A stretch of 64,000 nt of DNA, taken from the NCBI GenBank assembly GCA_031315865.1, contig JALDRJ010000002.1, positions 3,570,001-3,634,000 of the forward strand. The letters are read 5' to 3'. A model generated the notes under the pieces. That model had not been told where the DNA came from. It did not search any database and saw nothing but the letters and a program-made list of their open reading frames with translations. The position numbers and the translations under genes are program-made. Below are positions 280 through 15,794 of this stretch, in pieces (within the stretch, counting starts at the first letter, position 1; each line of letters starts with the position of its first letter). The DNA comes from Nitrospirales bacterium. GTDB taxonomy: Bacteria; Nitrospirota; Nitrospiria; Nitrospirales; UBA8639.

Positions 280-1761
280 TCAGGTCGGCTTTAAATACGC
301 TTGCACTTCCTGAGCGTAGGTGCGAAAGGGATCAGGCATAAGGAACGCTGACTGCCCCAGTACCTGAAACACGGACCAATTGATCACATAAGGGGGAAAA
401 CGTCGCTCGTGTTGTTCCAGATCCGATCCATCTGGCCACGATCGATCAACTAAATCCTTGACGACTTCTCCACGACCAAAGGCCCGTGTATCTCTGGGCG
501 GTGCGTATTTCGATAATTCGATAGCGTCATGTGTCGTGACGAACGGTACCCGACCTTCGTCCGCTAACCCAAAGTAGAGCCCTTTTTGAGGATTGACATT
601 GTGGTACTCAAGGTCAAGGCTCTTCAGCCACGGATCCTGCCACGATAGTTGTTCCTGCTCGCGAAACGTTTCAAGCAGCCAGAGCTTGGACGCCCAATCG
701 ACCCGACCGATCACTCGTGTATAGTCCACACGCAGGTCATTTAACACACTTTCCCATTGCGCTAACACCCAATCCGTTTCTTCATCCTGACCGTGATACC
801 GTTTCTGTGCCCGTTCGAGAAACCGTTCCTGAATATCGATGGCTGAAAGTCGCTCTCCGGTCGCCAGGGTCAGTTGCCACGTACGTTCAGGATCACGTGA
901 TACTTCCCGAAGTGCTTCGACGGGGTCAGGCAGGTCCAGTCCCGTGGGAGCATGACCATCCTCGATAAGCTGAAGGACCAATCCTGTCGTTCCCATCTTC
1001 AAGGCCGTCGCGACTTCTGAAAGATTGGAATCCCCGACCAATAGATGAATCCGTCGGAATTGCGTGGGATCAGCCAGCGGTTCATCACGAGTGTTGATAA
1101 TCGCCCGATTGTGCTGAACCCACTCAAAAAAATCATTGACGATATAATCCGCCCGCTGGGAAATCTGATAGGGCACCGTGAGTGAACGTTCTGTATTTTC
1201 GGCCGTCTCACGTTCACGAGTGAGATGTTCGAGGGGAATCCAACCATTAGGATTTTCCGCCGCGCCGATTCTACCGGCTCCGGTAAAAATTTGACGGGTG
1301 ACCAGAAAGGGAATGAGCTTGCCTAGCCCGCTATAGCTGAAAGGAAACTCTCGAGAGACCAGGTAGTTTTCATGACAGCCAAACGTCGCATCGGTTTCAT
1401 GATCAATATTATTTTTAATCAGCGAAACCTGTTCCGCCAACCCCATCTCCTCAATGGCGTCCTGCAATAACCAATCGCCCGCCCGGTCAGACGCGACAAG
1501 ATCCCGCAAGGAATGACATTCTGGAGAGGCAAATTCTAGATGGCCCATATCCACATACATTCGCCCGCCATTTAAGAGAAAGCCCCCGTTCCCGGGCGGT
1601 TCATCATACCCGCGATGGTGGAGGTCCAACACCCCGTAGCGCTTGACGCGAAACAGATGGTCGATGATTTGATAGGCAATCCAGGACGGTGGACGATCCG
1701 GCCGCTCTTCGTGAATGAGCAAACCATACTCGGTTTCTATTCCAAAAATACGATTACGCAC
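280..1761 (-). CDS. pafA: Pup/UBact-protein ligase PafA
   Basis: This is a 493-residue member of the Dop/PafA carboxylate-amine ligase family, which joins the C-terminal glutamate of Pup to lysines of target proteins using ATP. The FGIETEYG motif near the N-terminus supplies a Mg/ATP-binding Glu. NGGRMYVDMG contains the catalytic-base Asp (D71), and KNN, CHENYL, SQRADY and NTRDEP follow in family order. I assign PafA rather than Dop because it lacks the Dop loop and ends in the DPFR segment typical of PafA C-terminal domains. It is the last gene of the proteasome operon, 26 bases after prcA. The start is a GTG with no Shine-Dalgarno match; the leader holds CCTCCT instead, so translation may depend on coupling to prcA. 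Confidence 0.9.
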   Translation of the reverse strand: MRNRIFGIETEYGLLIHEERPDRPPSWIAYQIIDHLFRVKRYGVLDLHHRGYDEPPGNGGFLLNGGRMYVDMGHLEFASPECHSLRDLVASDRAGDWLLQDAIEEMGLAEQVSLIKNNIDHETDATFGCHENYLVSREFPFSYSGLGKLIPFLVTRQIFTGAGRIGAAENPNGWIPLEHLTRERETAENTERSLTVPYQISQRADYIVNDFFEWVQHNRAIINTRDEPLADPTQFRRIHLLVGDSNLSEVATALKMGTTGLVLQLIEDGHAPTGLDLPDPVEALREVSRDPERTWQLTLATGERLSAIDIQERFLERAQKRYHGQDEETDWVLAQWESVLNDLRVDYTRVIGRVDWASKLWLLETFREQEQLSWQDPWLKSLDLEYHNVNPQKGLYFGLADEGRVPFVTTHDAIELSKYAPPRDTRAFGRGEVVKDLVDRSWPDGSDLEQHERRFPPYVINWSVFQVLGQSAFLMPDPFRTYAQEVQAYLKPT

Positions 1762-1787: not shown

Positions 1788-2615
1788 CTAACGGGTCAAC
1801 GTCACCGGAAATGGGAGGAGATCGGTCAATTCATCAGAGGAGAGCATCCGGTATTTTGATTTTCCGGAAATGGTTCGATCCAAGAGGCCGCATTCAAGAG
1901 AAGATTGGGACAATGTTTCACGAAGATGGGCAATGATATCATCATCCGCAAATTGTCGCAGAGACTCCTGCGCCTTTCTTGAGATTTCATCGTTTGGCTG
2001 ATCGTGGTGTTCTCCCCCATCGTTCCTCTGAAGTAAGTCTCCCATGGCCCAAGTTCTCATGCCTAATTCGATGCCTTCTTTAAGCGACAGGATTCGTTCA
2101 GCCATTTGCTTCACGACATGATCAGCCAATATAGCCTGAATCGAAGCGTGACCAGCTAGCACGACACACGAATGAGCCTCGTGAAAGCTTCCATCATAGT
2201 CGATCGTCAGAAATTGGTCTTGCTCCTTCGTCCGGCCCAACTCCACGAGGAGAAGTTTGATGAGAAAGGGCGCCTTAAAGATTTCTTCAAACGCTTGTTT
2301 TAACGTCGGAGCCAACCCGTACTTTAGCAGCCGCGCTCCGGTCACATCAGAGGGCGACCGGTTAAATCCCTCAAGATGCGCCATATCCAATAATTGAAAG
2401 CGTAACTTTTCCAGGTCTGCCGGATGGCCCATGCCACCAAGTGCAATCCGGTCATAGATTTCATACAGCTTGGGCGTCCCACGGTTCAGAGTAAGGAGTA
2501 AAATACCATCTTGGCAGGAGAGTGCGATAATTGGACTTCCCCGCCGTAACTGGTCAGCGACATACTGACGCCGGTTTTCGACAGCTTCTATCCACCGATA
2601 CGGTTCTTCATACAT
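1788..2615 (-). CDS. prcA: 20S proteasome alpha subunit
   Basis: A 275-residue alpha-type proteasome subunit. It forms the outer rings of the 20S core and the gate on which the ATPase docks. The N-terminus (EEPYRWIEAVENRRQYV) matches the alpha-subunit helix that precedes the first strand, and there is no processed Thr. The segment DRIALGGMGHPADLEKLR matches the alpha-subunit region seen in actinobacterial PrcA. Its ATG overlaps the end of prcB by 8 bases and follows an AGGTGA ribosome-binding site. The stoichiometric partner lies directly upstream. Length is close to that of actinobacterial PrcA (about 250), with a longer C-terminal tail. The family assignment is firm; assembly is inferred. 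Confidence 0.92.
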   Translation of the reverse strand: MYEEPYRWIEAVENRRQYVADQLRRGSPIIALSCQDGILLLTLNRGTPKLYEIYDRIALGGMGHPADLEKLRFQLLDMAHLEGFNRSPSDVTGARLLKYGLAPTLKQAFEEIFKAPFLIKLLLVELGRTKEQDQFLTIDYDGSFHEAHSCVVLAGHASIQAILADHVVKQMAERILSLKEGIELGMRTWAMGDLLQRNDGGEHHDQPNDEISRKAQESLRQFADDDIIAHLRETLSQSSLECGLLDRTISGKSKYRMLSSDELTDLLPFPVTLTR

Positions 2616-3402
2616 ATCGCGTCACCTGCGCTTCACACAGTCGTTTGAGATGCTCCGCGGCGATTGGCTCGACCCCACGGGATGTTATCCGTTTGATGAC
2701 GGGAAATAGATTGGCTTCATAATTAATACCGCCAGTCGCAGCATCAAACTCGGCCGCACTACTGAGAAGTCGCAAAATGAGAATAATGGCATCCTCTTCA
2801 GGAAGGTCGTACAACGGTCGTTCACCCCAGCGGTGCAAATAATGAAGTATGCCTCGTATGGTCGGCGAACCCGAGCCAGAAACGGCATAATCCACGCCTT
2901 CAAATTCAGCGCCCAGAATGTCATAGAAGTAAATCTTGCCTTCTCGGTCATCTTGGTCATACCCGGCGAATACAGGTGCTACCGTACCCGTTCCAGCCAA
3001 AGCCGCCGGCGCATTGTCCTTCAAGAGCTTTGTTAATGCCCGCAATTTGCCTTCAAAACTTAAATCTTGGAGCTGGCTCCGTCGATAATACTTAAACGAA
3101 TGCTCCAAGACTCTCGCCATTTCAAACGCGGTTGCCGGGACACCAGCAATAGCCATGATGCAAAATCGATCCAACTCCAACACTTTGTCGGTTCGATCGT
3201 ACATCACCGACATGCCGGCCGTGGCCCGCCGGTCTCCACCCACCAACACGCCATCATGATATTTACACGCCAACACCGTCGTCCCGTGAGTGATCAATTC
3301 CTGTTGTCCGTTCCCCCCCGCCAGGCTGTCAGACCTGAGCTCATCAAAGGCATATCCCTGAGCTTTCAACAGTTGAAAAAAATCACCGTGCCGTCCCATC
3401 AT
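2608..3402 (-). CDS. prcB: 20S proteasome beta subunit (catalytic, with propeptide)
   Basis: A 264-residue beta-type subunit, the proteolytic part of the 20S core. A 40-residue propeptide ends in THG, followed by TTVLA, so self-cleavage would expose Thr41 as the N-terminal nucleophile. Counting from that Thr, Asp17 (residue 57, in VGGDRR) and Lys33 (residue 73, in RTDK) are both present, so the catalytic triad is intact. The motif AVSGSGSPTIRG also fits beta subunits. The gene starts 2 bases after the pup stop, with GGAGAG as ribosome-binding site and two adjacent ATG codons. The order pup-prcB-prcA is the same as in actinobacteria. Confidence 0.95.
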   Translation of the reverse strand: MMGRHGDFFQLLKAQGYAFDELRSDSLAGGNGQQELITHGTTVLACKYHDGVLVGGDRRATAGMSVMYDRTDKVLELDRFCIMAIAGVPATAFEMARVLEHSFKYYRRSQLQDLSFEGKLRALTKLLKDNAPAALAGTGTVAPVFAGYDQDDREGKIYFYDILGAEFEGVDYAVSGSGSPTIRGILHYLHRWGERPLYDLPEEDAIILILRLLSSAAEFDAATGGINYEANLFPVIKRITSRGVEPIAAEHLKRLCEAQVTRYV

Positions 3403-3404
3403 CC

Positions 3405-3647
3405 TTACTCTCCGGTCCGCTGCCGATAACGCTCTGCTTGTTTGGGGTCAACTTTTCGCATCCGTTTTAACAGATTATCCTTCTGGGCTGAATCAGGGTC
3501 CGGACGCTTAGGCCCTCGGTCATCCTCTCCCGGACCAGGTGGTCTGGAAATTGGACTCGGTTGCTCACGTCGCTCACAGTGAGCGGGATTCGACAACCCG
3601 GCAATCAGAATTATGCGATCCTCGGCCGTGTATTGGTGACGTATCAT
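3405..3647 (-). CDS. pup: Pup-like protein modifier of the UBact type
   Basis: An 80-residue, highly charged, low-complexity protein lying exactly where pup is expected, between dop and prcB. The C-terminal half (KRPDP...KDNLLKRMRKVDPKQAERYRQRTGE) is rich in Lys/Arg and ends in R-T-G-E. This tail is the hallmark of UBact, the Pup homologue described in Gram-negative bacteria with proteasomes. Because it ends in Glu instead of Gln, it should be ready for ligation by PafA without deamidation. The ATG overlaps the dop stop (ATGA) and has an AGAGGAG site 6 bases upstream. That supports this start, even though it adds about 20-25 residues (IILIAGLSNPAHC region) ahead of the usual short modifier. 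No folded domain is apparent, as expected for a disordered tag. Confidence 0.9.
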   Translation of the reverse strand: MIRHQYTAEDRIILIAGLSNPAHCERREQPSPISRPPGPGEDDRGPKRPDPDSAQKDNLLKRMRKVDPKQAERYRQRTGE

Positions 3648-5167
3648 ATGACACTCCTCTCGTTCATGCGAGCCAACTCAAAAGGCGTTACGATTCCATC
3701 CAGTTCAGCCTGTATCGCCTGCACCGCTTCCGGCTCCACCACATCATGTAAATCCAGATTGGTTCGTTGCCCGAATTCCGACTTGAACTGTATACGTTCC
3801 CATTGTACGGCATGAATGTCCTTAGCAAATCGTTTCACACATTTTCCACGGATTCCTCCGCGCGTATCCATCGGCCCCTCGCGTATCGCACGCAGGATAT
3901 CCTCCTCCTGACAGACTCGTTTGACTTGACCATCAGCCTCCAAGCTCATGTAGAGTCCCCGTTCTGGATTCACGTTGTGATATTCAAGGTCGATACTCGC
4001 TAACCATGGATCCGACCAATCCAGATGTTCTTCCTGGCGAAATCGTTCGAGCAACCAGAGCTTGGTGATCCAATCCAGAGAGCCGACCAATTCCCATCGA
4101 TCGCGTTTCAATGTGGTAAGGACACGTGCCCATTCTTCGAGAATCCAATCTGTCTCCTCGTCACGCCCCTTGTAAGCCCTTTCGGCAGCCTCAAGATACT
4201 CAGCTTGAATCTCACAGGCCGAGAGCGCAGGGCCTCGACGGGTTTTCATGAAAGTCTTGAGTTCAGGATCTCGAGAAAACGCCTGCACCGCACGAACAGG
4301 ATCTTCCAACTCTACGTCGGGCGTCAATCGTTGTTCGAGCATATCAAGAACGACTCTGGTGGTGCCGACTTTTAACGCAGTCGCATACTCGCACATATTC
4401 GCGTCCCCGATGATCAGATGAAGACGCCGATATTTTGATCGATCCGCATGAGGTTCATCGCGCGTGTTCAAAATCGGGCGATTGTACATCGTATCCACGC
4501 CCAAGACGGCCTCCATAAAATCCGCGCGTTGGGATAGCTGAAAACCTCCAGACTGATATCCCTGTTCCTGCTTTTCGAGGCCAACCTTGCCCGCACCCGC
4601 GATGACTTGTCGACTCACGAGAAACGGCACGAGCGCCTGAACCAGGTCTGAAAAGGGAATGGCGCGGGAAACCAGATAGTTGTCATGACAGCCATAGCTA
4701 TGGCCATGAAAGTCCGTGTTGTTCTTGTAAAGTTGAACGACCGGGCTTCCAAGTTGGTGATTGCGTTTGTCGGCCGATTGCTGCACGATCCGCTCTCCCG
4801 CCCGGTCATGCGCCACAAGATCTCGCAAGGTCCGACATTCGGGAGTCGCATATTCGGGATGGGTATGATCATTATAAAAGCGCGCCCCATTCATCAACAC
4901 CAAATCGCTTTTCATCTCGTAAAACGAGAAGGATCGATGAGCATCTTCTTTGGCAAACGCTTCCTCTTCCTTATCCTGTTGGAGCCCCGACACCCGAAAA
5001 CCTCGCTGATCCTCATGCGGCTCTTCACCTCGATAGTCCCAATGCTGTTTGAATGGTCCCTCATGATGAGCACGAACGAGTTCCATGGATTCAACCACCG
5101 GATCAACGTGGTCTTGATCCTCCCGTGTAATTCCATATTCCGTTTCGATGCCAAATAAACGCAACAC
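3644..5167 (-). CDS. dop: Depupylase / Pup deamidase Dop
   Basis: A 507-residue homologue of PafA assigned as Dop. FGIETEYGI opens the protein, and residues ~36-85 form an insertion (HHEGPFKQHWDYRGEEP and on) placed and composed like the Dop loop. NGARFYNDHTHPEYATPEC carries the catalytic Asp (D100), and GFQLSQRADF and NTRDEPHAD follow. Dop removes Pup from substrates and, where Pup ends in Gln, deamidates it. Here the tag already ends in Glu, so depupylation is the likely job. The frame is open to 5245, but the homology begins at the GTG at 5167, which has AAGGA about 10 bases upstream and lies 13 bases after the mpa stop. The upstream extension is therefore discarded. The stop overlaps pup. 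Confidence 0.9.
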   Translation of the reverse strand: MLRLFGIETEYGITREDQDHVDPVVESMELVRAHHEGPFKQHWDYRGEEPHEDQRGFRVSGLQQDKEEEAFAKEDAHRSFSFYEMKSDLVLMNGARFYNDHTHPEYATPECRTLRDLVAHDRAGERIVQQSADKRNHQLGSPVVQLYKNNTDFHGHSYGCHDNYLVSRAIPFSDLVQALVPFLVSRQVIAGAGKVGLEKQEQGYQSGGFQLSQRADFMEAVLGVDTMYNRPILNTRDEPHADRSKYRRLHLIIGDANMCEYATALKVGTTRVVLDMLEQRLTPDVELEDPVRAVQAFSRDPELKTFMKTRRGPALSACEIQAEYLEAAERAYKGRDEETDWILEEWARVLTTLKRDRWELVGSLDWITKLWLLERFRQEEHLDWSDPWLASIDLEYHNVNPERGLYMSLEADGQVKRVCQEEDILRAIREGPMDTRGGIRGKCVKRFAKDIHAVQWERIQFKSEFGQRTNLDLHDVVEPEAVQAIQAELDGIVTPFELARMNERSVI

Positions 5168-5180
5168 GTGGGAACAGTCC

Positions 5181-6950
5181 TTAGATGATGGGATAAAGCA
5201 TGCGCTCAGTAGAATTGGAACGCCGCCGAAAAGTTGACACGCCAACGACCTGATCGGGGTGATAATCCAGCAGCTTCAACCATTCTTCTGCCGAATCATC
5301 GGGCGGAAAAATATCGCCTTCTTCAAATTCTTCTTTGATCGCCCGCTCACAGTCCGCTTGAGAAAGACCAGCTGGGGATTGGGCTTCACCAGAAATTTCC
5401 CGTTCAATGGCCCGTTCTTTGGCCCGTCGCACAATGTTCGCCAGAATAGCCCCACTCAATACATCCTGTCGATAGAGGACTTCCTGACGACCATTTCGTA
5501 AACGAATAGCCAGCACCCTGCTCTCATCTGTCTTCGTGAACAGCTGATCCAACACACTGACTAGGAGAGCATGTCGCGCCGATTCCGAATCCCCTTGATG
5601 AGCGGCGAGGCAAGTCGCATCGAGTGGAATCCCTTCCGTCAAATAGAGACGAATGATTTCTTCAGCTTCCTCTCGATTGGGACGGCTCACCTTCACTTTT
5701 CGGTCTATTCTCCCCGGCCGCAACACGGCGGGGTCGATCAGATCGGGCCTATTCGAAGCCAGAATGACCACCACGTCATGCAACGTCTCGATTCCGTCTA
5801 ACTCAGCGCAAAACATCGGCACTAACGTATTGGAAATGTTATAGGAACGGGCTGCACGACGAGTCCCGAGAATGGACTCTGCTTCATCGATGAAAATAAA
5901 CGGTAAGCTTCCAGCCTGGCGACGTTCACGTGCTTGGGAAAAGAGATCCCGCACGATACGTTCAGACTCACCCACCCACATATTTAACACCTCCGGACCT
6001 TTGACATGCAAAAAACATCCTTGAGTAATGGGCGGGAGAGAAGACGATCGTTCGATCGAAGAACCATCGTGAGAAAACTGCGCTGCCCCCTCTTGGACCA
6101 GCTGAGCCAGACTTGCAGCTGTCGCTTGCCCGATCAACGTTTTTCCACACCCAGGAGGACCATGTAACAAAAACCCCTTCGGTTGAGTAAATTGATACTG
6201 CTGAAAGGTCTGTGAATGAAGAAGCGGATATTCAATCGCACGACGAATCGCATCGATGGCCGCCTTTTGTCCCCCAATATTCTCCCATCTCACAGTTGGG
6301 ACTTCAGCCAACATGTGGCCGTGCTTTTGCGACCTCTCCATTCGCTCGATGACGTATCGATGAGACGGGTCAATACGAACTTCATCCCCTGCCTTAAATG
6401 CAACGTTCATCAGCTCAGGAATCGGCTGTAGGATGATTCCCTGACGTCCGGGTTCCTGCTCCATTCGCAAGCGCCCATCTGACAGCACCTCACGAACGGT
6501 GAGGAGCGGACCATTCGTGTCATAGCCCAGAGATCGAAGGACAACATAGGCTTCATTCACGAGAATTTGGGCACCAATCTTCAGCGCACCAGGTTCGAGA
6601 CGGGGATCGACATTGGTAAAGTACTCACTCCCTCCGACCAAAATGTGCGCGACGCCTTCCTGAGGAAGATCCAGAAGCGTGCCAATTCGATTTGCGGGAG
6701 CTGTCAGCTGTTCGACCGCAGCCGTCAGTTTCTTCACTTCGGCATCCCGTTGCCGCCGTTCAACACCATGTTGCAACAGCGCCTCTTTGATTCGGCGCAA
6801 CAAAGGCAGCCGTTCATCCCCTTCGGAAAAAGAAGCCAAACACTCGTCGATTAACTGCAAAAGATTGGAGTCGCTAACCTTGGAGGAGAAGACAGACCCT
6901 CGAGAGGAAGAACGTGGAAGTTTGTCGTCAAAACTTTGTCGATCACCCAT
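5181..6950 (-). CDS. mpa: Proteasome-associated AAA+ ATPase (Mpa/ARC)
   Basis: A 589-residue ATPase that recruits tagged proteins, unfolds them and feeds them into the 20S core. Residues ~50-85 are predicted coiled coil (the Pup-binding element in Mpa), followed by OB-type segments at ~90-200. The AAA+ module begins at WENIGGQKAAIDAI: Walker A GPPGCGKT at 264-271, Walker B FIFIDEAES at 351-359, sensor Asn400 and the RPGRID arginine finger at 411-416. It is the first gene of the operon. Unusually, the C-terminus reads LYPII. Actinobacterial Mpa ends with a penultimate Tyr that docks on the alpha ring; here the Tyr is fourth from the end. The ribosome-binding site before the ATG is weak, so the precise start is less certain. 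Confidence 0.9.
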   Translation of the reverse strand: MGDRQSFDDKLPRSSSRGSVFSSKVSDSNLLQLIDECLASFSEGDERLPLLRRIKEALLQHGVERRQRDAEVKKLTAAVEQLTAPANRIGTLLDLPQEGVAHILVGGSEYFTNVDPRLEPGALKIGAQILVNEAYVVLRSLGYDTNGPLLTVREVLSDGRLRMEQEPGRQGIILQPIPELMNVAFKAGDEVRIDPSHRYVIERMERSQKHGHMLAEVPTVRWENIGGQKAAIDAIRRAIEYPLLHSQTFQQYQFTQPKGFLLHGPPGCGKTLIGQATAASLAQLVQEGAAQFSHDGSSIERSSSLPPITQGCFLHVKGPEVLNMWVGESERIVRDLFSQARERRQAGSLPFIFIDEAESILGTRRAARSYNISNTLVPMFCAELDGIETLHDVVVILASNRPDLIDPAVLRPGRIDRKVKVSRPNREEAEEIIRLYLTEGIPLDATCLAAHQGDSESARHALLVSVLDQLFTKTDESRVLAIRLRNGRQEVLYRQDVLSGAILANIVRRAKERAIEREISGEAQSPAGLSQADCERAIKEEFEEGDIFPPDDSAEEWLKLLDYHPDQVVGVSTFRRRSNSTERMLYPII

Positions 6951-7262: not shown

Positions 7263-7562
7263 TTAAAACCTTCTGCCGCCACCCCCGCCAAATCCACCAT
7301 CGCGCGAACGGGGAGTTTGAGGACGGGCTTCATTCACAGTCAACGTTCTTCCTCCCATTTCAGTTCCATTCAATGCCTCTATGGCCGCTTTCGCTTCTTC
7401 TTCCGTGGACATCTCGACAAACCCAAATCCTCTCGATCGTCCAGTAAACTTATCCATAATGATTCGCGCCGACTCTACATTCCCATGGGGCATAAATAAA
7501 TCAGACAACTCTTGGTCTACTGCCGAATAGGGCAGGCCACCCACATAAATTTTTGAACCCAT
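7263..7562 (-). CDS. RNA-binding protein with one RRM domain
   Basis: A 99-residue single-RRM protein of the type found in cyanobacteria and many other bacteria, often cold-inducible. RNP2 is KIYVGGL at residues 4-10 and RNP1 is RGFGFVEM near residue 44, each with the aromatic residues that stack on RNA. The C-terminus is a Gly/Arg-rich tail (GGFGGGGGRRF), also usual for these proteins, which are proposed to act as RNA chaperones. AAGGAGGAA lies directly upstream of the ATG, an unusually strong ribosome-binding site. A terminator follows the stop. It is transcribed in the same direction as the proteasome operon but as a separate unit. Confidence 0.93.
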   Translation of the reverse strand: MGSKIYVGGLPYSAVDQELSDLFMPHGNVESARIIMDKFTGRSRGFGFVEMSTEEEAKAAIEALNGTEMGGRTLTVNEARPQTPRSRDGGFGGGGGRRF

Positions 7563-8209
7563 TGGGTTCCTCCTTTTAATTAAACTATTGTTGTTTTGCA
7601 GGAAAGGTTAAGGAAGGAACGGCCCGAGAGCGCGGTATTGAGGCGACTTAGGTCTGACTTCCGAAATAAGTTCTGAAGCAAAACAACAGCCATTCAGGGC
7701 CAACCTCTTAAACACCTAGCTACCAGGCCCACAGGAAGTAGCTATGGTAGAAGAACGATAGCCTACCGCTCAAAAAAAAGCAACAAAAAAGAGTCTCTCA
7801 GAAACAGACAAAATCAAAAAATCAGCTTCTCAACCGGGTGGAATCCAGTCTTTCACAGGGCCGACCGGCCTCTCGAACAACGGCATTCGCTCCTTCAGCA
7901 TCGCCATACCCATCTGAAGTCAGGTGACCAGCCCTCATGTAATGGACCACGCCCAGAGGTGTTCCATTTTTTACATCTTATTAACGTAGGATCCCGCGTG
8001 TTTTCGATGCCTCTCATTTTTCATGAGTTCCGGCAGGAATCTCAACCACGACATTCAACAATTCGTTGTTCGTGCGGTCAGGATAATCATGTAAGGAAAA
8101 GAATAGCCGTTCATTGTGCTTATGAATGGGAATTCGCTATAAGTTCCTATGAAAACTATTTGGTTATTTGATATGCTCACGATTAAGAAAAATCAGGGAG
8201 GGTTTCCCG
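7563..8209. other. Long divergent intergenic region with inverted repeats
   Basis: About 650 bases lie between the RRM gene (minus) and the lipoprotein gene (plus). Two inverted repeats are visible. GTTGTTTTGC at 7590-7599 pairs with GCAAAACAAC at 7678-7687, flanking some 78 bases just ahead of the RRM start. TAGCTAC at 7717-7723 pairs with GTAGCTA at 7738-7744. If transcribed leftward, these would form a structured 5' leader for the RRM mRNA. A 70-codon open frame on the plus strand (7959-8171) has no support and is not annotated. Confidence 0.5.
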
Positions 8210-8887
8210 ATGAGTAAATGGCAACAGGTTATTCTCTTTGGGATTGTGAGTGTTTTCTTGGCATCGTGTGCAATCCCGGTTGACATACGCAATTCAGGGT
8301 TTTTCCAGGAACAAGACCTCAGGGATTTTGCAGACAATTGGTTGAGGATATCCAGTTACCAACATAGTCCAGGTCATATTAACATCCTTCAACGTGGTTC
8401 GGTGCACATGACCGGCCGCTACCGTTTTGAGGGGGATTCCCTGGCAGGAGGTACGACTGAATTGGGGCAAATTGACCTGGAAATTAATTTTGATGATCGC
8501 GACGAAGTGAGACCCGGTTCCTATGTCATACCGATTACCTCTGGAAAGATCAGTAATATTACGGGACTGTTGCCGGACGTACCAGATTTTGGTGTAGGCT
8601 GGTCTGGCGAGATTCCTATCACCGGAACAATATCAGTGGAAGAAGCCGTTGGAACAGAGGGAGACCCCCCTCTTATCGGCTTTGAGGCGAAGGGAACAGT
8701 AACGTCCATTCCTCGTCGAGATGGAGACGCAGGAAGCTCTCGTGAAGTGCAGCGAATTTTTTCAGGGACATTTTTTCAAGAATTCAAGCTCGGCGTCTTT
8801 CCTCTGTCTGCCGCAGGAACCGTTACACAGGATGTCTCCTCCATAGCTGGGCCAAACAATCAATTCTATCTCGAGCAAGCTCGTTGA
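8210..8887 (+). CDS. Lipoprotein of unknown function
   Basis: A 225-residue exported protein. The frame is open from 8168, but the ATG at 8210 is preceded by GGGAGGG at 7 bases and begins a good lipoprotein signal: Met-Ser-Lys, a hydrophobic stretch, then LASC with the lipidated Cys around residue 20. The mature part is polar with alternating beta-type segments (VHMTGRYRF, IDLEINFDD, GSYVIPITSG) and no family I recognise. It ends just before a tRNA-Leu on the opposite strand. I cannot assign a function; envelope location is inferred from the signal. Confidence 0.75.
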   Translation: MSKWQQVILFGIVSVFLASCAIPVDIRNSGFFQEQDLRDFADNWLRISSYQHSPGHINILQRGSVHMTGRYRFEGDSLAGGTTELGQIDLEINFDDRDEVRPGSYVIPITSGKISNITGLLPDVPDFGVGWSGEIPITGTISVEEAVGTEGDPPLIGFEAKGTVTSIPRRDGDAGSSREVQRIFSGTFFQEFKLGVFPLSAAGTVTQDVSSIAGPNNQFYLEQAR

Positions 8888-8994
8888 GTTCGGCGGAACC
8901 TGCTCAGGACATGCACGATTGATCCCGGCCCCATCAACCCAGCATCGTCGTTCAGCAACAGCACGGACAAGCTCGCGATGGGATTTCATATAAG

Positions 8995-9082
8995 TGGTGC
9001 GGGAGACGGGAATTGAACCCGTATGCCCTTTAGGGGCGCAGGATTTTAAGTCCTGTGCGTCTGCCGATTCCGCCACTCCCGC
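8995..9082 (-). tRNA. tRNA-Leu (anticodon TAA)
   Basis: Read on the minus strand, the gene starts GCGGGAG and ends CTCCCGC-A-CCA, so the CCA end is encoded. The D-loop region (TGGCGGAATCGGCAGACGC) is typical of leucine tRNAs. The anticodon stem-loop carries ACTTAAAAT with anticodon TAA. The variable arm is long, as in class II tRNAs, and the T-loop reads GGTTCAATTCC. Length is 88 with CCA. It lies alone between two protein genes. Confidence 0.95.
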
Positions 9083-9222
9083 AAATCTGAAGTGAAAGCG
9101 ACAAACTCTACCATCGGACTTCCATCATAGCAAGAACTCTCAACCTTGATGTCCGACGAATTCGGCACCATACCGTCACAGAACAATCATGGAAAACCTG
9201 CAGTCTAGGATTAGGAAGAAAA

Positions 9223-9264
9223 ACACGAAGGGCTGTGGAATGTTTCATCCACAGCCCTTCGTGT
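9223..9264 (-). terminator. Rho-independent terminator downstream of the Pal-like gene
   Basis: A perfect 17-base inverted repeat (9223-9239 and 9248-9264) with an 8-base loop sits 25 bases past the stop of the Pal-like gene. On the minus strand the stem is followed by TTTCTTCC. The very long, perfect stem could also stop transcription coming from the other side. Confidence 0.8.
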
Positions 9265-9288
9265 GAAGACGAGTCTTTTCAATGTCAC

Positions 9289-10338
9289 TTAGTTTTGTAA
9301 GTCGATATGTCCACGCCGGTTTTGTTGATAACAGAACTCATTGTGCTCAGAACAAAACGGCCGTTCCTTTCCGTACGAGACTACTTTCAACTGAGAGGAA
9401 TTGACACCCAAGTCAACCAGGTATTCTTTAGCGGCCTCCGCGCGTTTCTTCCCTAACACCATGTTGTAATCTTGCGTGCCGCGTTGGTCGCAATGTCCTT
9501 CAATCGTGACCTGGTGGCCAGGATGGTTCTTCAGCCATTCCGCGTCAGCTTGAAGAGACTTCGCCCCTTCATGGGAAATCTTCCAACTATCGAATGCAAA
9601 ATACACATCCTCGACGTTTCCACCCCAGGAACTCTCGTAACTTCCATACTGACCATTCATAGAAGAAGCACTATGGGATTCACGGGACTGATTCCCTGAC
9701 CCATATTCTGAAGCATAGGGGTTGGATCGGGCGACAAAGACATCTTGATCGACATGTTCAGACATCAACCCTCCCTGAGGCGAACCGTCTTCTGAAGGTC
9801 CCTCAGCAACATTCCCTCGTAAAAAAGCCTCGGCCCATGCTTCAGGGGTAGGATTCACGCCTTCAGCAAACCCACTCCCAAACCCGCTGACCGGCCCGTT
9901 GTTCGAATCATAGCCGGGTACTCCTGAATAATTATGTTTATAGTCAGCCCCAGGTCCAGGTTGATATCCCCGGTCATAGCCGGGATCATATTCTTGGTCA
10001 TATTGTGGGTCATATCCCTGATAGCTATACGCTCCGTTCTTAATCTCCTTTCCATCGGGGATTTGTCCGTTATGATTGTAGGCCGGAGAATACCCGATAG
10101 CGCCGGGGTCATACGACTCACCACTTTCATAGAATGATCGCCCAGTCTGATAGTCGCCATTACTGGGCATCGTGTCTCCTGACTCCTCCATCATCGCAGT
10201 TCCATCGCTCATTGTTCCATCAGGACCACGCTCAGAATCCACTGTGTACCCTACAGAATGAGAACTGCATCCTTGCCCCACGACCAACAGCAAGGCTATG
10301 GCGCTCATCCATAATCGTGAGTGAGATCGAGTATTCAT
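9289..10338 (-). CDS. Peptidoglycan-associated (Pal/OmpA C-terminal) lipoprotein
   Basis: A 349-residue envelope protein. The ATG at 10338, with AGGAGG a few bases upstream, opens a signal with a Cys after VVGQG. The upstream 12 codons of the open frame are discarded. The middle (~residues 30-230) is low-complexity and rich in Tyr, Asp, Gly and Pro, with repeated YDP/YDxGY units. The C-terminal ~110 residues are an OmpA-like peptidoglycan-binding domain: VYFAFDSW, IEGHCDQRGT, NMVLGKKRAEAAKEYL and NRRGHIDL, with the Asp and Arg that grip diaminopimelate. It should anchor the outer membrane to the wall, as Pal does in the Tol-Pal system, but no tol gene is nearby and the long Tyr/Gly linker is unusual for Pal. 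Confidence 0.85.
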   Translation of the reverse strand: MNTRSHSRLWMSAIALLLVVGQGCSSHSVGYTVDSERGPDGTMSDGTAMMEESGDTMPSNGDYQTGRSFYESGESYDPGAIGYSPAYNHNGQIPDGKEIKNGAYSYQGYDPQYDQEYDPGYDRGYQPGPGADYKHNYSGVPGYDSNNGPVSGFGSGFAEGVNPTPEAWAEAFLRGNVAEGPSEDGSPQGGLMSEHVDQDVFVARSNPYASEYGSGNQSRESHSASSMNGQYGSYESSWGGNVEDVYFAFDSWKISHEGAKSLQADAEWLKNHPGHQVTIEGHCDQRGTQDYNMVLGKKRAEAAKEYLVDLGVNSSQLKVVSYGKERPFCSEHNEFCYQQNRRGHIDLQN

Positions 10339-10902
10339 TGAAAACCTCCTCTGAATGAATAAGATGATACGCATGCGTTACTCATCACCAATGTGTCGTT
10401 GAAAGTAGGCGGTGTGAAGGGACGCATTGACGATATCTCGTTACACTTCAAATACATCTGCAAACAAATTTGCGAATGAACGCGAAATTCGCTTCATGCA
10501 GCTAACTATCGGCATTCCGGAGTAAAACTTAAGTACTTTTCAGATCTTCTTGAAAGCAGAACGGCTATTCAGCCTCGGAGCGTTTCAACTTGATAGAAGC
10601 GAGAAGAGGCAAGAAGGTAGGATATTGACTATCAGAAAATCTTGATACAGCGAATTTCGATATCGCCATTAAATGAGGAGCCTCAAGGGATCCAATCAGA
10701 AACGTGGGAAAAAGGAATCAAACGACGATGACACGCCACCATCGTACGCTAGAGAGAAATGCAAGAGGAGAAGGAGGTGAGGAAAAGCAGATTGGCCCCG
10801 TATGCTTCACTTTTTTCACCAAGACATAAAACCGGGCGAAATCGTCGGCATTCCTCCTCCCAGGGTCCCCCTGAATCTGTCAGCAAACATCCCCACGATC
10901 TT
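10339..10902. other. Intergenic region between the epimerase and Pal-like genes
   Basis: About 560 bases upstream of the Pal-like gene and downstream of the epimerase gene, both on the minus strand. The open frames on either strand have no recognisable motifs or ribosome-binding sites. I see no convincing terminator or RNA gene; promoter elements for the Pal-like gene are expected near 10340-10450 but none stands out. Confidence 0.4.
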
Positions 10903-11913
10903 TTAAAGGAATGTGTGTTGGTACCATCGCCAAAATCGCGAGACGCCTTCAGGCACCGAGGTCTGAGGGTTATACCCCAAGAGCTGACGAGTCTTGCTAA
11001 TATCAGCAAAGGTGTAGGCGATATCGGCATCCAGCATGGGAGCCGGAATCAGGTTGGCCGAACGACCCGTTAACTGTTCAATTCCGGTCACAAAGTCAGA
11101 GAGCAAGACCGGCTCTCCTCGCCCTAGATTGACGATATCATACCCTAACGGACGATCCACAGCTGCCACCACGCCGCTCACGATATCCTCGACATACGTC
11201 CAATCACGGTGCATATTGCCTCCATTATAGAGAGGAACCTCTGCACCCTTAAAAATATTATCAAGCACTTTAAACGCCATCATATCGGGACGACCGCGAG
11301 GACCATACACTGTAAAAAACCGAAGAACCGTAAACGGCAGCCCATAGAGATGATGATACGAAAATCCCAGCATTTCACTCGCACGTTTACTCGAAGCATA
11401 GGGAGCCAAAGGCCGATCACAACGATCCTCTGGGACAAATGGCACAATCTGAGTATTGCCGTAGACCGAGGAGGTAGAAGCAAAGACGAACGTCGGCAGG
11501 TTTTTGGTCTGCGAAGAAGACGACTTGACACTCAAACGCCCTACACAAGCATCAAGCAGCGTCAGGGTTCCATTCACATTGACATCATAATAGAGCCCGG
11601 GATCGTCGATCGACACCCGCACCCCGGCCATGGCTGCGAGGTGAACCACGCAATCAATCGAATGACCATCGAAGACTTCCTGAATGATCTTTTTGTCCCG
11701 AATATCACCTTCGACCAATTTAAAAGATTTGAACTGCCCGGAAGGAGAGAGTTGGTCTTCTAGCTCTTGTATATTCGCACGTTTTCGCTTGGGGTCATAG
11801 TAGTCATTAAAATTGTCGATACCGATAACCCGATCGCCTCTTTTTAGGAGCGTTTCCACGGTGTGACTTCCGATGAATCCAGCTGCGCCTGTGACCAGCA
11901 CGGTTTTAGACAT
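10903..11913 (-). CDS. UDP-sugar epimerase (UDP-glucuronate 4-epimerase type)
   Basis: A 336-residue extended SDR. VLVTGAAGFIGSH is the NAD-binding motif, VHLAAMAGVR follows, and YASSK is the catalytic YxxxK. RFFTVYGPRGRPDMM and the C-terminal LGYNPQTSVPEG match the family that includes UDP-glucuronate 4-epimerase (CapI/LpsL-like) in capsule and LPS sugar synthesis. RGRPDMA-type loops favour uronate over glucose, but substrate choice is inference. The ATG at 11913 has AAGGAGAA at 6 bases, so the 8-codon longer frame is rejected. It is not in an obvious operon. Confidence 0.85.
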   Translation of the reverse strand: MSKTVLVTGAAGFIGSHTVETLLKRGDRVIGIDNFNDYYDPKRKRANIQELEDQLSPSGQFKSFKLVEGDIRDKKIIQEVFDGHSIDCVVHLAAMAGVRVSIDDPGLYYDVNVNGTLTLLDACVGRLSVKSSSSQTKNLPTFVFASTSSVYGNTQIVPFVPEDRCDRPLAPYASSKRASEMLGFSYHHLYGLPFTVLRFFTVYGPRGRPDMMAFKVLDNIFKGAEVPLYNGGNMHRDWTYVEDIVSGVVAAVDRPLGYDIVNLGRGEPVLLSDFVTGIEQLTGRSANLIPAPMLDADIAYTFADISKTRQLLGYNPQTSVPEGVSRFWRWYQHTFL

Positions 11914-12320
11914 ACATGTTCTCCTTCTCTTCTTCACTCATGTTCATGATGTGCCGAATCGATTGGCGGTATAGGCGGTGTTTCTCTGACTTTCCAGGAC
12001 GTGCCCTTGCTGTCCCATGACTACCAAGGATTCTATGCCAACGGATATCAATTCAAGGGAACCCCGGCACATATGAGTGAATAAATGACTCCGACAAATT
12101 ACATAGTCTCTATGGAGGATTGAACTCAATCGGTTGGCAAGTTTGACTTACGACACAACTAAATTGTTGGAACGATAAGGAATCCGTCGGTCAATCAATT
12201 AGTTACCTTAACACAGTTCACAGTAATTGTTGAGAATACGGTTTCGCACGACTGCTGTGCTTTCATGCACTTCATTGACCTGAACTTGTGAGCCCTCCAT
12301 GTCGTTGCTACAATACAATC
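11914..12320. other. Divergent intergenic region
   Basis: About 400 bases between the epimerase (minus) and the ClpS-like gene (plus). It should hold both promoters. The candidate for the plus strand is listed separately; nothing else is recognisable. Confidence 0.4.
12286..12314 (+). promoter_or_regulatory. Candidate promoter giving a leaderless ClpS-like mRNA
   Basis: TTGTGA (12286-12291) and TACAAT (12309-12314) are spaced by 17 bases. A transcript would begin about 7 bases past the -10 box, almost exactly on the ATG at 12321. No Shine-Dalgarno sequence precedes that ATG, which fits a leaderless message. Pattern match only. Confidence 0.35.
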
Positions 12321-12626
12321 ATGATCCAAGTGGTGGGTAATCGAACACTTGAGACACCTGCGGTCATTGAGGATACAGGAATCGGCACGGGACAAGATTT
12401 TGAAGCCGAAGTCATCGTCTACAATTGTAACTGCCACACCTATCAACAAGTCATTGCATTATTTTGTGAATATATTCCCGGCATGACACCCGCCAGAGCC
12501 TTTGAGTTGGCATGGCAAATCGATCATCATGGAAGTGCCGCCGTATACCAGGGAGAACAGAAAAGAGCTGAAGGAATCGCCAAACAACTGGCAGGAGGAG
12601 GATTGCGCGTAGAAGTTCGCTATTAA
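12321..12626 (+). CDS. ClpS-like adaptor protein
   Basis: A 101-residue protein matching the ClpS fold by pattern. There is a strand (AEVIVYNC), then a helix, GMTPARAFELAWQIDHHGSAAVYQGEQKRAEGIAKQLAGGGLRVEVR, which lines up with the ClpS core (xxHxxGxxxVxxGxxexAexxaxxL). ClpS delivers N-degron substrates to ClpA/ClpC. The specificity pocket differs: the usual NDD reads N35-C36-N37, and the pocket His (E. coli H66) aligns with Asp68. Ligand preference may therefore be altered or lost. The frame is open 11 codons upstream, but homology and the promoter pattern favour 12321. No clp gene is adjacent. Confidence 0.75.
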   Translation: MIQVVGNRTLETPAVIEDTGIGTGQDFEAEVIVYNCNCHTYQQVIALFCEYIPGMTPARAFELAWQIDHHGSAAVYQGEQKRAEGIAKQLAGGGLRVEVRY

Positions 12627-12715
12627 CATCCGTGTGATTAGTCAGATGTACGCTCTTCACTGACTGATTGTATCATCGATACTGATTTCCTAATTTTCAC
12701 AATTGCCTGTCCTCG

Positions 12716-13249
12716 TTACGGACGGCTCTTCTTTACGTTCCCCTTTTTCAAAGTCTTCTTGGGCTTTGATAAAACAGGTTTAACAGCGGGTTGAGTCTTG
12801 CCAGCTTTCTTAGATTTGGCGGTATGCTTTTGGGTTTGAGCTTTAGGAGACACAACTTTCCGGCTCGACCGAACTGCCTTGTCTGGCGCATTCTTCTTCG
12901 CCGATCTCGTATCCTCTTCCACCTTCCTGGACTGAGGCTTTTTCATCGCTTTATTCGATAAACTGCTAGAGACCATTTTGGGCCTTGCCTCTGAACCGGA
13001 GGACTTTGATTGAGTCTCGGGAGACTTTTTCGTCTTGGGGCTCGACTTCTTCTCGGCATTGAGGGGCTGCGGGTCTTTTGAAAATGAAGTCTTACTCTTC
13101 TTCAGTGTTTCTCCTGTATAGACTTTCACTTGGTACAATTCAAAGAGTAGATCAATAGCTTTTTCATCTCCTTTTCTTGCAAGACCCAGCAGACGCCGGC
13201 GTTGGTTCATTTCTTCTTCTTCCGTATGAGAAGTCACGCGCCGTTCCAT
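12716..13249 (-). CDS. Lys/Ser-rich low-complexity protein
   Basis: A 177-residue protein. Only the first ~45 residues look folded (RRRLLGLARKGDEKAIDLLFELYQVKVY, predicted helical). The rest is a disordered tail dominated by Lys, Ser, Pro and Ala, with KK and SKK clusters resembling histone H1 or bacterial Lys-rich nucleoid proteins. The charge suggests nucleic-acid binding, but composition alone cannot prove it. AAAGGA precedes the ATG at 13249; an internal ATG at 13210 is an alternative. I do not recognise the helical head as a named domain. Confidence 0.6.
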   Translation of the reverse strand: MERRVTSHTEEEEMNQRRRLLGLARKGDEKAIDLLFELYQVKVYTGETLKKSKTSFSKDPQPLNAEKKSSPKTKKSPETQSKSSGSEARPKMVSSSLSNKAMKKPQSRKVEEDTRSAKKNAPDKAVRSSRKVVSPKAQTQKHTAKSKKAGKTQPAVKPVLSKPKKTLKKGNVKKSRP

Positions 13250-13502
13250 CCATCGTTCCTTTGCGATTGTCTAGTTAAAGAGTTATCCAGGGTTATCAAG
13301 CCTGGGGATTGTACAGAAACAGTCACCGTTTGTCAGTATCACCTAGTGTTTTTTTCTCATTCAACATGACTAGAGTCAAGAACTAATCAGTAGGATAGCC
13401 AAGAATCGTATGTTCTTTCCCCTTACTCAAGGGCTTCTTAGGAATTTGAGAAAACCGTTTTGCTTCTCGCTCTCTTGTCCCATGGAAAAGCGGTAGCCAA
13501 GC

Positions 13503-15794
13503 TTACAGACTCTTTAATGTTGACTTGGCTTCCTCCGATCCAGGGAAATTACCACTCAACTGCAGAGCCGCTTCTAACGACTTTTTGGCTCCCTCTCGAT
13601 CGCCTTTTTTAAACTGTGCCATGCCATAGTGAAATTGCACTTCTGGGTTATCTTGCAGCTTTTCAGCGGCTTCTCCCAGAAGAGAAACGGATTTCAAATA
13701 CGCATCCTTCTTATAATAAATCCATCCGAGCGTATCCGCGATATGCGGCTCTTCAGGCTGCTGCTCTCTAGCCGTTTGCGCATGAGACAGCGCAACATCC
13801 AAATTCCCCCCGTGCTCAGCCATGATCCACGCCAGATTGTTCGCTGCCGGGGCAAACTTGGGTTGGATCTTTAGCGTCGCTTCATAATGTTGCTGGGCTT
13901 TCTCGTATTCTTGTTGCTGTTCAGCGATCATGCCTAAAACCATATGGGCCGACACCAGCTTGGGGTTCCGTTCCAACAGTTGCTCATATTCTCTTACCGC
14001 TTCAGTTGTTCGCTTGGTCACACGGTACAATTCCGCTAAGTGCAAGTAGGAAGCTTGAATATCTGGGTTGATCTCAATGGCTTTTTTGAAAGCCGCTTCG
14101 GCCTGATCGGCATCGTTGGCCTGCATCCATAATTGTCCTAGCAGACTATAGAACAGTGGGTTTTGTGGCGACGTTTCGATCTGCGTTAACACTCGTTGAC
14201 GAGCAGCCTTGGCATCTCCTTTCGCGAGTTGTACATTGGCAAGTTGCGATAAGGCTTGCAAAAAGTCAGGGCTTCCCCTGAGGGCAGCTTCAAAGTGCTC
14301 GATAGCCTTGTCCCAACGCTTATCAGCTCCAGCGATAAGACCTAGTTGATAATGGCTTGATGATTCGAGCGGAACTTGCGCCACGATCATTTCAAACACC
14401 TTTTTGGCCTTGTCAACATCGCCCTTTTGAAGATAGGCCGCACCAAGAATTCGAACGGCTTTCAGGTTCCGGGGGTTCAGTCGGATACCAATTTTGGCGT
14501 CTTCAATCGCGAGATCGTAATCTCTGGCGGCCAAATGCACTGCCGCAAGAGCCGTTCGGGCTGTGACGCTGTTCGGAGCCAACTTCACGGCTTCCAACAA
14601 TTCAGTCACCGCTTGGTTGAGGTCTTTTTTGGCCCCATACGCAACCCCGAGATATTCGTGAGCTGGCGCGAAGTCCGGTTTGTCATTCACGACATGTTGC
14701 AAAAGCGTCACCGCATCATCAGGCTTTCCCTCAGCTAGCAGAATACGCGCTTGGTGCACGCGTCCCATTAAATCATGTTTATCCTTGTCCAATGTCTGAC
14801 GAATTTGCTCTTTGGCTTTAGCAAATTCTCCCGTGTCGATATAGTGATTCGTGAGTCGTTCACGCGCATCCAATGAGTCAGGAGTAACCTCCAAGGCTCG
14901 CTGGTAACTCGACAATGCCTGATCGAATTTATTCATGGACGTATAATAATCACCCAAAAACAAGTATGGTTTTTCACTCGTGGGTTTTTGCGACGCCAGT
15001 TGTTGGTACGTCGCTTCAGCCTGATCAAATTTCTGATACGCTTGAAAGAAGAGCGCGAGCTTGACGTAGAGACCTTGATTGTCAGGATCCAGCTCGATCG
15101 CTCTCCGGTAGCGAGCCTCTGCCTCTGCCGGCTTCTTTTGAATCGCATAAAAATCGCCCATGGCCATCATGAGCTGCGTCGAGTCGGGATGTTTGGTCAA
15201 CGCCTCTTGAAGCGCGTGCTCTGCGGAGGGAAAATCCTTCAAGCCGACATACGCCCTCGCCAAGTCAAGATAGATTTGAACGTTGTCAGGGTCCAGCTCA
15301 ATAGACTTCTTCAATTCGGAGATACCCTCGTTGTATTCTTTCTCACTAATTAAACTTCGTCCCCGTAACAAATGCCCTTTGGGGTCCTGAGGCGAGGACG
15401 CCAGAACGATTTCTGCCCGCTCTCTGGCCTCAGCCGGCTTCTGCCCGAGCAAGTACAATTCTCCGAGCTTCAATTGCGCATCATCATTCTTGGGATCCAG
15501 GTCAACCGTCTTGGAGAGCTCCCCATACGCACGCTGCATATCAGGTATTCCACCAACTTTGAGATGACTCAACGCCAGCTGGTAGTGGCCTTTGGCATCT
15601 TTGGGATCAAGTTGAACCACATTCTTAAATTCAATGATGGCCTCTTCGTATTTTTCATCCTCAAAATATGCCATTCCCCTCTTATAGTGAATGGCTTTCT
15701 TTTCTTCAGCCGTCATTTGCGTACAATTGCCAAGGACCAAGAGCAGCAATGGAAGCCATATCGCCCATAAGGGAACCGCTCGTCTACATGTCAT
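13503..15794 (-). CDS. Multi-TPR lipoprotein (PEP-CTERM-system TPR type)
   Basis: A 763-residue protein built almost entirely of tetratricopeptide repeats (~20 units with W/L-G-Y-A-P spacing, e.g. AIIEFKNVVQLDPKDAKGHYQLA). A hydrophobic N-terminus ends in LVLGNC, probably a lipidation site although Asn at -1 is atypical. The arrangement resembles the TPR lipoprotein (PrsT) linked to PEP-CTERM/exosortase exopolysaccharide systems, but no exosortase gene is visible nearby, so that link is inference. GAGGAG lies 9 bases before the ATG at 15794, which I prefer over upstream in-frame ATGs. TPR solenoids of this kind scaffold envelope complexes. Confidence 0.8.
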   Translation of the reverse strand: MTCRRAVPLWAIWLPLLLLVLGNCTQMTAEEKKAIHYKRGMAYFEDEKYEEAIIEFKNVVQLDPKDAKGHYQLALSHLKVGGIPDMQRAYGELSKTVDLDPKNDDAQLKLGELYLLGQKPAEARERAEIVLASSPQDPKGHLLRGRSLISEKEYNEGISELKKSIELDPDNVQIYLDLARAYVGLKDFPSAEHALQEALTKHPDSTQLMMAMGDFYAIQKKPAEAEARYRRAIELDPDNQGLYVKLALFFQAYQKFDQAEATYQQLASQKPTSEKPYLFLGDYYTSMNKFDQALSSYQRALEVTPDSLDARERLTNHYIDTGEFAKAKEQIRQTLDKDKHDLMGRVHQARILLAEGKPDDAVTLLQHVVNDKPDFAPAHEYLGVAYGAKKDLNQAVTELLEAVKLAPNSVTARTALAAVHLAARDYDLAIEDAKIGIRLNPRNLKAVRILGAAYLQKGDVDKAKKVFEMIVAQVPLESSSHYQLGLIAGADKRWDKAIEHFEAALRGSPDFLQALSQLANVQLAKGDAKAARQRVLTQIETSPQNPLFYSLLGQLWMQANDADQAEAAFKKAIEINPDIQASYLHLAELYRVTKRTTEAVREYEQLLERNPKLVSAHMVLGMIAEQQQEYEKAQQHYEATLKIQPKFAPAANNLAWIMAEHGGNLDVALSHAQTAREQQPEEPHIADTLGWIYYKKDAYLKSVSLLGEAAEKLQDNPEVQFHYGMAQFKKGDREGAKKSLEAALQLSGNFPGSEEAKSTLKSL

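Follow-up and report, generated by a model that had tools for sequence, protein, structure and literature searches.

A UBact tag with an encoded terminal glutamate and a poorly conserved N-terminal leader, in a Nitrospirales genome that also carries a Pup-type proteasome system

Analysis of the window (the whole 64,000-nucleotide stretch of Nitrospirales DNA) identified a UBact gene within an intact proteasome operon. These data suggest that UBact is a Pup-like tag with its conjugating glutamate already encoded, and that its N-terminal leader is probably an unstructured threading tail, tolerant of sequence change. Such a tag would be translated with the conjugating glutamate in place. Judging by homology, the pafA product would activate the glutamate side chain and attach it to lysines of substrates; tag removal would fall to the dop product, and degradation of tagged proteins to Mpa/ARC together with the 20S core. 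The leader would lengthen the stretch that enters the ATPase pore, leader and Pro/Gly-rich linker together acting as the threader, with both letters and length tolerated. This would resemble Pup, whose disordered N-terminus threads into the Mpa pore, the first 15 residues having been seen in the channel (PMC8755798).

The UBact gene and its operon

The UBact protein (MIRHQYTAEDRIILIAGLSNPAHC-ERREQPSPISRPPGPGEDDRGPKRPDPDSAQKDNLLKRMRKVDPKQAERYRQRTGE, C-terminus RTGE) scored 66.8 bits against PF20513 (curated Pfam cut-off 27.8) and 68.1 bits against NF033388 (curated NCBIfam cut-off 35). Since both curated cut-offs were exceeded and the operon is conserved, the open reading frame is not a chance occurrence. 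PF20513 was the sole Pfam match of the gene, the Pup family PF05639 not being matched, and a search for solved structures matching UBact by sequence found none. UBact was reportedly described by Lehmann et al. in 2017 (BBRC; cited in PMC12751074). Like other members of PF20513/NF033388, the window gene has the conserved body KRMRKVDPKQAERYRQRTG[EQ] and shares its operon with genes for Dop, PafA, the proteasome and the ATPase. The order Mpa/ARC-dop-UBact-prcB-prcA-pafA is intact, with all genes on the (-) strand (Table 1). The Dop-loop region of the window dop aligned as HWDYRGEEPHEDQRGF, and the active-site Asp is conserved (YNDH). The window pafA scored higher against Dop than against PafA structures or models. 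On the 5′ side of Mpa/ARC, positions 7263-7562 (-) encode a small protein that, judged by eye, looks like an RNA-binding protein of the RRM type and has a glycine-rich tail.

Table 1. Features of the UBact operon in the window.
Feature	Positions	Strand	Description	Basis
Mpa/ARC	5181..6950	(-)	Proteasomal ATPase, UBact system; C-terminus YPII	Family matches
dop	3644..5167	(-)	UBact-type deamidase/depupylase homologue; Dop-loop region present	Family matches
UBact Shine-Dalgarno	3654..3660	(-)	AGAGGAG, within dop 3′ end	Sequence; SD pairing -8.8 kcal/mol
UBact	3405..3647	(-)	80 aa, RTGE end	PF20513 and NF033388 matches; ORF
UBact leader	3576..3647	(-)	Residues 1-24, N-terminal; predicted translated; length kept genus-wide, letters not conserved	
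UBact linker	3498..3575	(-)	Residues 25-50, Pro/Gly-rich, charged, from conserved ERREQP	Alignment
UBact body and tail	3408..3497	(-)	Residues 51-80, conserved basic two-helix body	Alignment, AlphaFold, charge counts
prcB	2608..3402	(-)	Proteasome beta, UBact system	Family matches
prcA	1788..2615	(-)	Proteasome alpha, UBact system	Family matches
pafA	280..1761	(-)	Tag ligase homologue without Dop-loop	Family matches

The start and end of the gene agreed with the reading in the earlier note. The terminal Glu codon is GAG (3408-3410, (-)), giving the R-T-G-E end. The ATG lies 6 nt downstream of AGAGGAG and overlaps the dop stop codon as ATGA; its modelled Shine-Dalgarno (SD) pairing was -8.8 kcal/mol, whereas a TTG, the single alternative start in frame ahead of the body, showed essentially no pairing. 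Judged by these signals, the ATG is the only well-supported start. The protein is also longer than the ~60 residues given for UBact in the earlier note: it has 80 aa, against the 64 aa usual in Nitrospira, because its variable leader is longer.

The N-terminal leader

The leader was compared among five genomes of the genus (the window, NPIRA01, NPIRA02, NPIRA04 and OFTM51). It comprises 24, 24, 24, 24 and 25 residues, including Met, before ERREQP, and a strong upstream SD and ATG precede it in all five. Most of the family has leaders of 12-25 residues (12-22 in the other members among the sequences listed), and a distant group (f21) has 21-26. In Nitrospira, where the protein is typically 64 aa, usually just 5-7 leader residues were found, several of these starts being judged by eye as the choice by SD energy fell inside the body or far upstream. 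The 684 leader codons held no in-frame stop, against 78 stops among the 1292 codons read in the two alternative frames, a difference partly built in by the selection of open reading frames. From its start signals and reading frame, the N-terminal extension claimed earlier appears real and common to the genus. The earlier note had also considered that homologues might all begin near residue 25 with their own SD. Nitrospira does begin close to the body, but the genus and most of the family do not; since they share the long start, the objection does not hold for the organism's own genus. Because Nitrospira manages with 5-7 residues, the leader is not essential for function in general.

The letters of the leader behaved differently from those of the body. 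Across the five genus genomes, leader pN/pS was ~0.8-1.3 in 9 of 10 pairs, the remaining pair giving 0.69; the final 44 codons of these genes gave 0.02-0.15. The ratios are rough, as synonymous sites are near saturation for most pairs, which does not affect the contrast. Pairwise amino-acid identity in the leader was 4-26%, rising to 70% in the closest pair. The leader sequence is hardly constrained and evolves almost freely, near the rate without constraint on its letters. The conservation of the first ~25 residues that an alignment of relatives might have revealed was thus found for length within the genus and hardly for the letters. A loose genus pattern was visible in the last ~12 leader positions (P near -4 and a hydrophobic pair near -13), which leaves room for weak constraint. 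The AlphaFold model, built from a 30-row alignment, placed helices at residues 51-63 and 68-78, with low confidence (~55) in the leader. The near-neutral leader, together with a hydrophobic run (IILIAGL) found solely here among 38 long leaders, speaks against docking through a specific motif and favours an unstructured tail used for threading.

The best-surviving alternative is that the leader is a by-product of a start codon coupled translationally to the dop stop, with length and sequence both neutral. The SD inside the dop end, the ATGA overlap and the near-neutral sequence would all fit, as would the drift of start position and leader length between genera. However, a leader of 24-25 residues has been kept in the five genomes despite heavy substitution, and relatives differ in the spacing of dop stop and UBact start. 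This explanation therefore seems unlikely, if less so than those below. Against the threading reading, the constant leader length may come from a scarcity of indels and not from selection.

The earlier note had proposed that the extension, with its hydrophobic stretch, could dock onto or gate the ATPase. Such a stretch is present, with a maximum 7-residue hydropathy of 3.21 at IILIAGL, and the loose pattern of hydrophobic positions is common to the genus. Against this, the highest value among the 37 other long leaders was 1.94, so that the run occurs in 1 of 38; pN/pS is near neutral, the leader is nearly absent in Nitrospira, and AlphaFold confidence is ~55. A specific docking or gating role is accordingly improbable. 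An internal true start near residue 25, leaving the leader untranslated, was rejected as highly improbable: low leader constraint and the Nitrospira proteins starting a few residues before ERRE would suit it, but no ATG, GTG or TTG with an SD lies near residue 25 here, and every genus member has the strong upstream SD-ATG. Two other roles for the leader were also considered. A lipobox at PAHC-E was rejected as the site does not match the motif and genus relatives have Leu there, and a transmembrane role is unlikely with a hydrophobic run of ~7 residues.

The Gly-Glu end and the role of Dop

Among 139 distinct UBact sequences sampled from Nitrospirota, 113 ended in RTGE and 26 in RTGQ, with terminal codons GAA/GAG (Glu) or CAA/CAG (Gln). 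A Gly-Glu end is ordinary for UBact. Changes between the two ends were counted on a 101-row Dop tree, from which seven stray rows were left out. About 13 switches were found, or 14 and 18 when branches below SH-aLRT 80 and 95, respectively, were collapsed as hard polytomies, and at least 9 when branches below 95 were taken as unresolved. Some switches separate close neighbours, for example L148 (Gln) and L024 with L038 (Glu). From the 113 to 26 ratio and the recurrent switches, Glu is the commoner end, readily gained or lost, with dop retained either way; dop adjoins UBact in all rows of this tree by construction. One further locus (L169) carries two UBact genes, each with an RTGE end.

In species with a Glu-ending Pup, Dop mainly removes the tag (PMC3511204, PMC12288473). 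By analogy, UBact-Glu would need no deamidation, and the remaining role of Dop would therefore be removal. The suggestion in the earlier note that Dop serves for removal alone is thus sound by analogy, and has already been published for Glu-ending Pup (PMC3511204, PMC12288473).

A second, Pup-type system in the same genome

When the relatives were searched with the window dop, two further Dop/PafA homologues came to light in the organism's own genome. These belong to a complete second operon (L191; G000 C2:2036000-2054000, positions 7793-14189, (-)) with Mpa2, dop2, prcB2, prcA2 and pafA2, itself without a pup gene. Its proteins scored above the NCBIfam curated cut-offs for Pup-type equivalogs, while the window copies scored below. 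A classical Pup gene (L221; G000 C2:633621-633812, (-)), encoding 67 aa with a GGQ end and matching PF05639 at 71.9 bits, lies as an orphan far from both proteasome operons.

Tags and proteasome subunits were counted in 59 relatives, own genome included. Clear UBact was found in 34, all of which had two beta-subunit matches. Two alpha matches were found in 33 of these 34 (one in G034), and Pup scored above cut-off in 33 (the exception being G030). G013, where UBact is partly masked, had two beta matches and Pup. The remaining 24 genomes, without UBact, had one beta match (22 genomes) or none (2). Several genomes of the same family (G007, G014, G016 and others of g4) are without UBact and have Pup-type proteasome genes only.

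The two tags share much. Both are small and predicted to be disordered, with two C-terminal helices and a Gly-Glu/Gln end, and Pup (PF05639, in Actinobacteria and in this genome) is likewise served by Dop/PafA homologues and Mpa. They differ in their ends, RTG[EQ] for UBact and GG[EQ] for Pup, and in charge, the C-terminal part being basic in UBact and acidic in Pup: over the 29 residues that precede the last, mean net charge was +4.8 (+2 to +6) and -6.0 (-8 to -2), respectively. Differences were also found in the enzymes. In an alignment of both enzymes, 14 columns were more positive in the Pup-type versions of Dop and PafA alike, and 8 in the UBact-type versions of both, each number exceeding what 5000 column shuffles gave. 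As a guess from the alignment, the charge-shifted columns may line the tag groove; common descent within each system would give the same pattern. No net-charge difference between the two Mpa types was found in the coiled-coil part of the ATPase, so the charge argument is confined to tags and enzymes.

The ATPase tails diverge as well. Of 57 copies of UBact-system Mpa, nearly all have an Ile-Ile end; the window copy ends YPII and its relatives mostly NQII, HTII or GQII, and the Tyr that stands next to last in the GQYL/HbYX docking tail is missing. Pup-system Mpa ends in GHY[FLV] in 10 of 10, resembling the docking tail of mycobacterial Mpa, which is GQYL (PMC8755798). The best tree joins Dop and PafA of each system (support 98) and does not sort them by function, though branches are long and grouping by function was not rejected (p-AU 0.07). 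The window pafA groups with its own dop and not with Pup-type pafA.

It is conceivable, and we put it forward tentatively, that UBact-positive Nitrospirales hold two insulated tag-proteasome systems per cell: a UBact system with a basic tag, more acidic sites in Dop and PafA and an Ile-Ile ATPase tail, and a Pup system with an acidic tag, more basic sites and an ATPase tail with Tyr next to last. Separate origins of the ligase/remover pair in the two systems are even possible. A 2026 review assigned a single alpha and a single beta subunit to species of Actinomycetales and Nitrospirales, the orders having bacterial core particles, Rhodococcus erythropolis excepted (PMC13022661). The two-system genomes contradict this statement for Nitrospirales, including Candidatus Nitrospira defluvii.

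The coexistence of UBact and Pup in one genome may already be noted in Lehmann et al. 2017. The frequent switching of the terminal residue yields natural, near-identical pairs (for example L024/L038 and L148) suited to testing whether deamidation is needed. The dual-system context deserves attention more than the N-terminal extension, and the two-system genomes offer a way to study how tag-proteasome systems avoid cross-talk.
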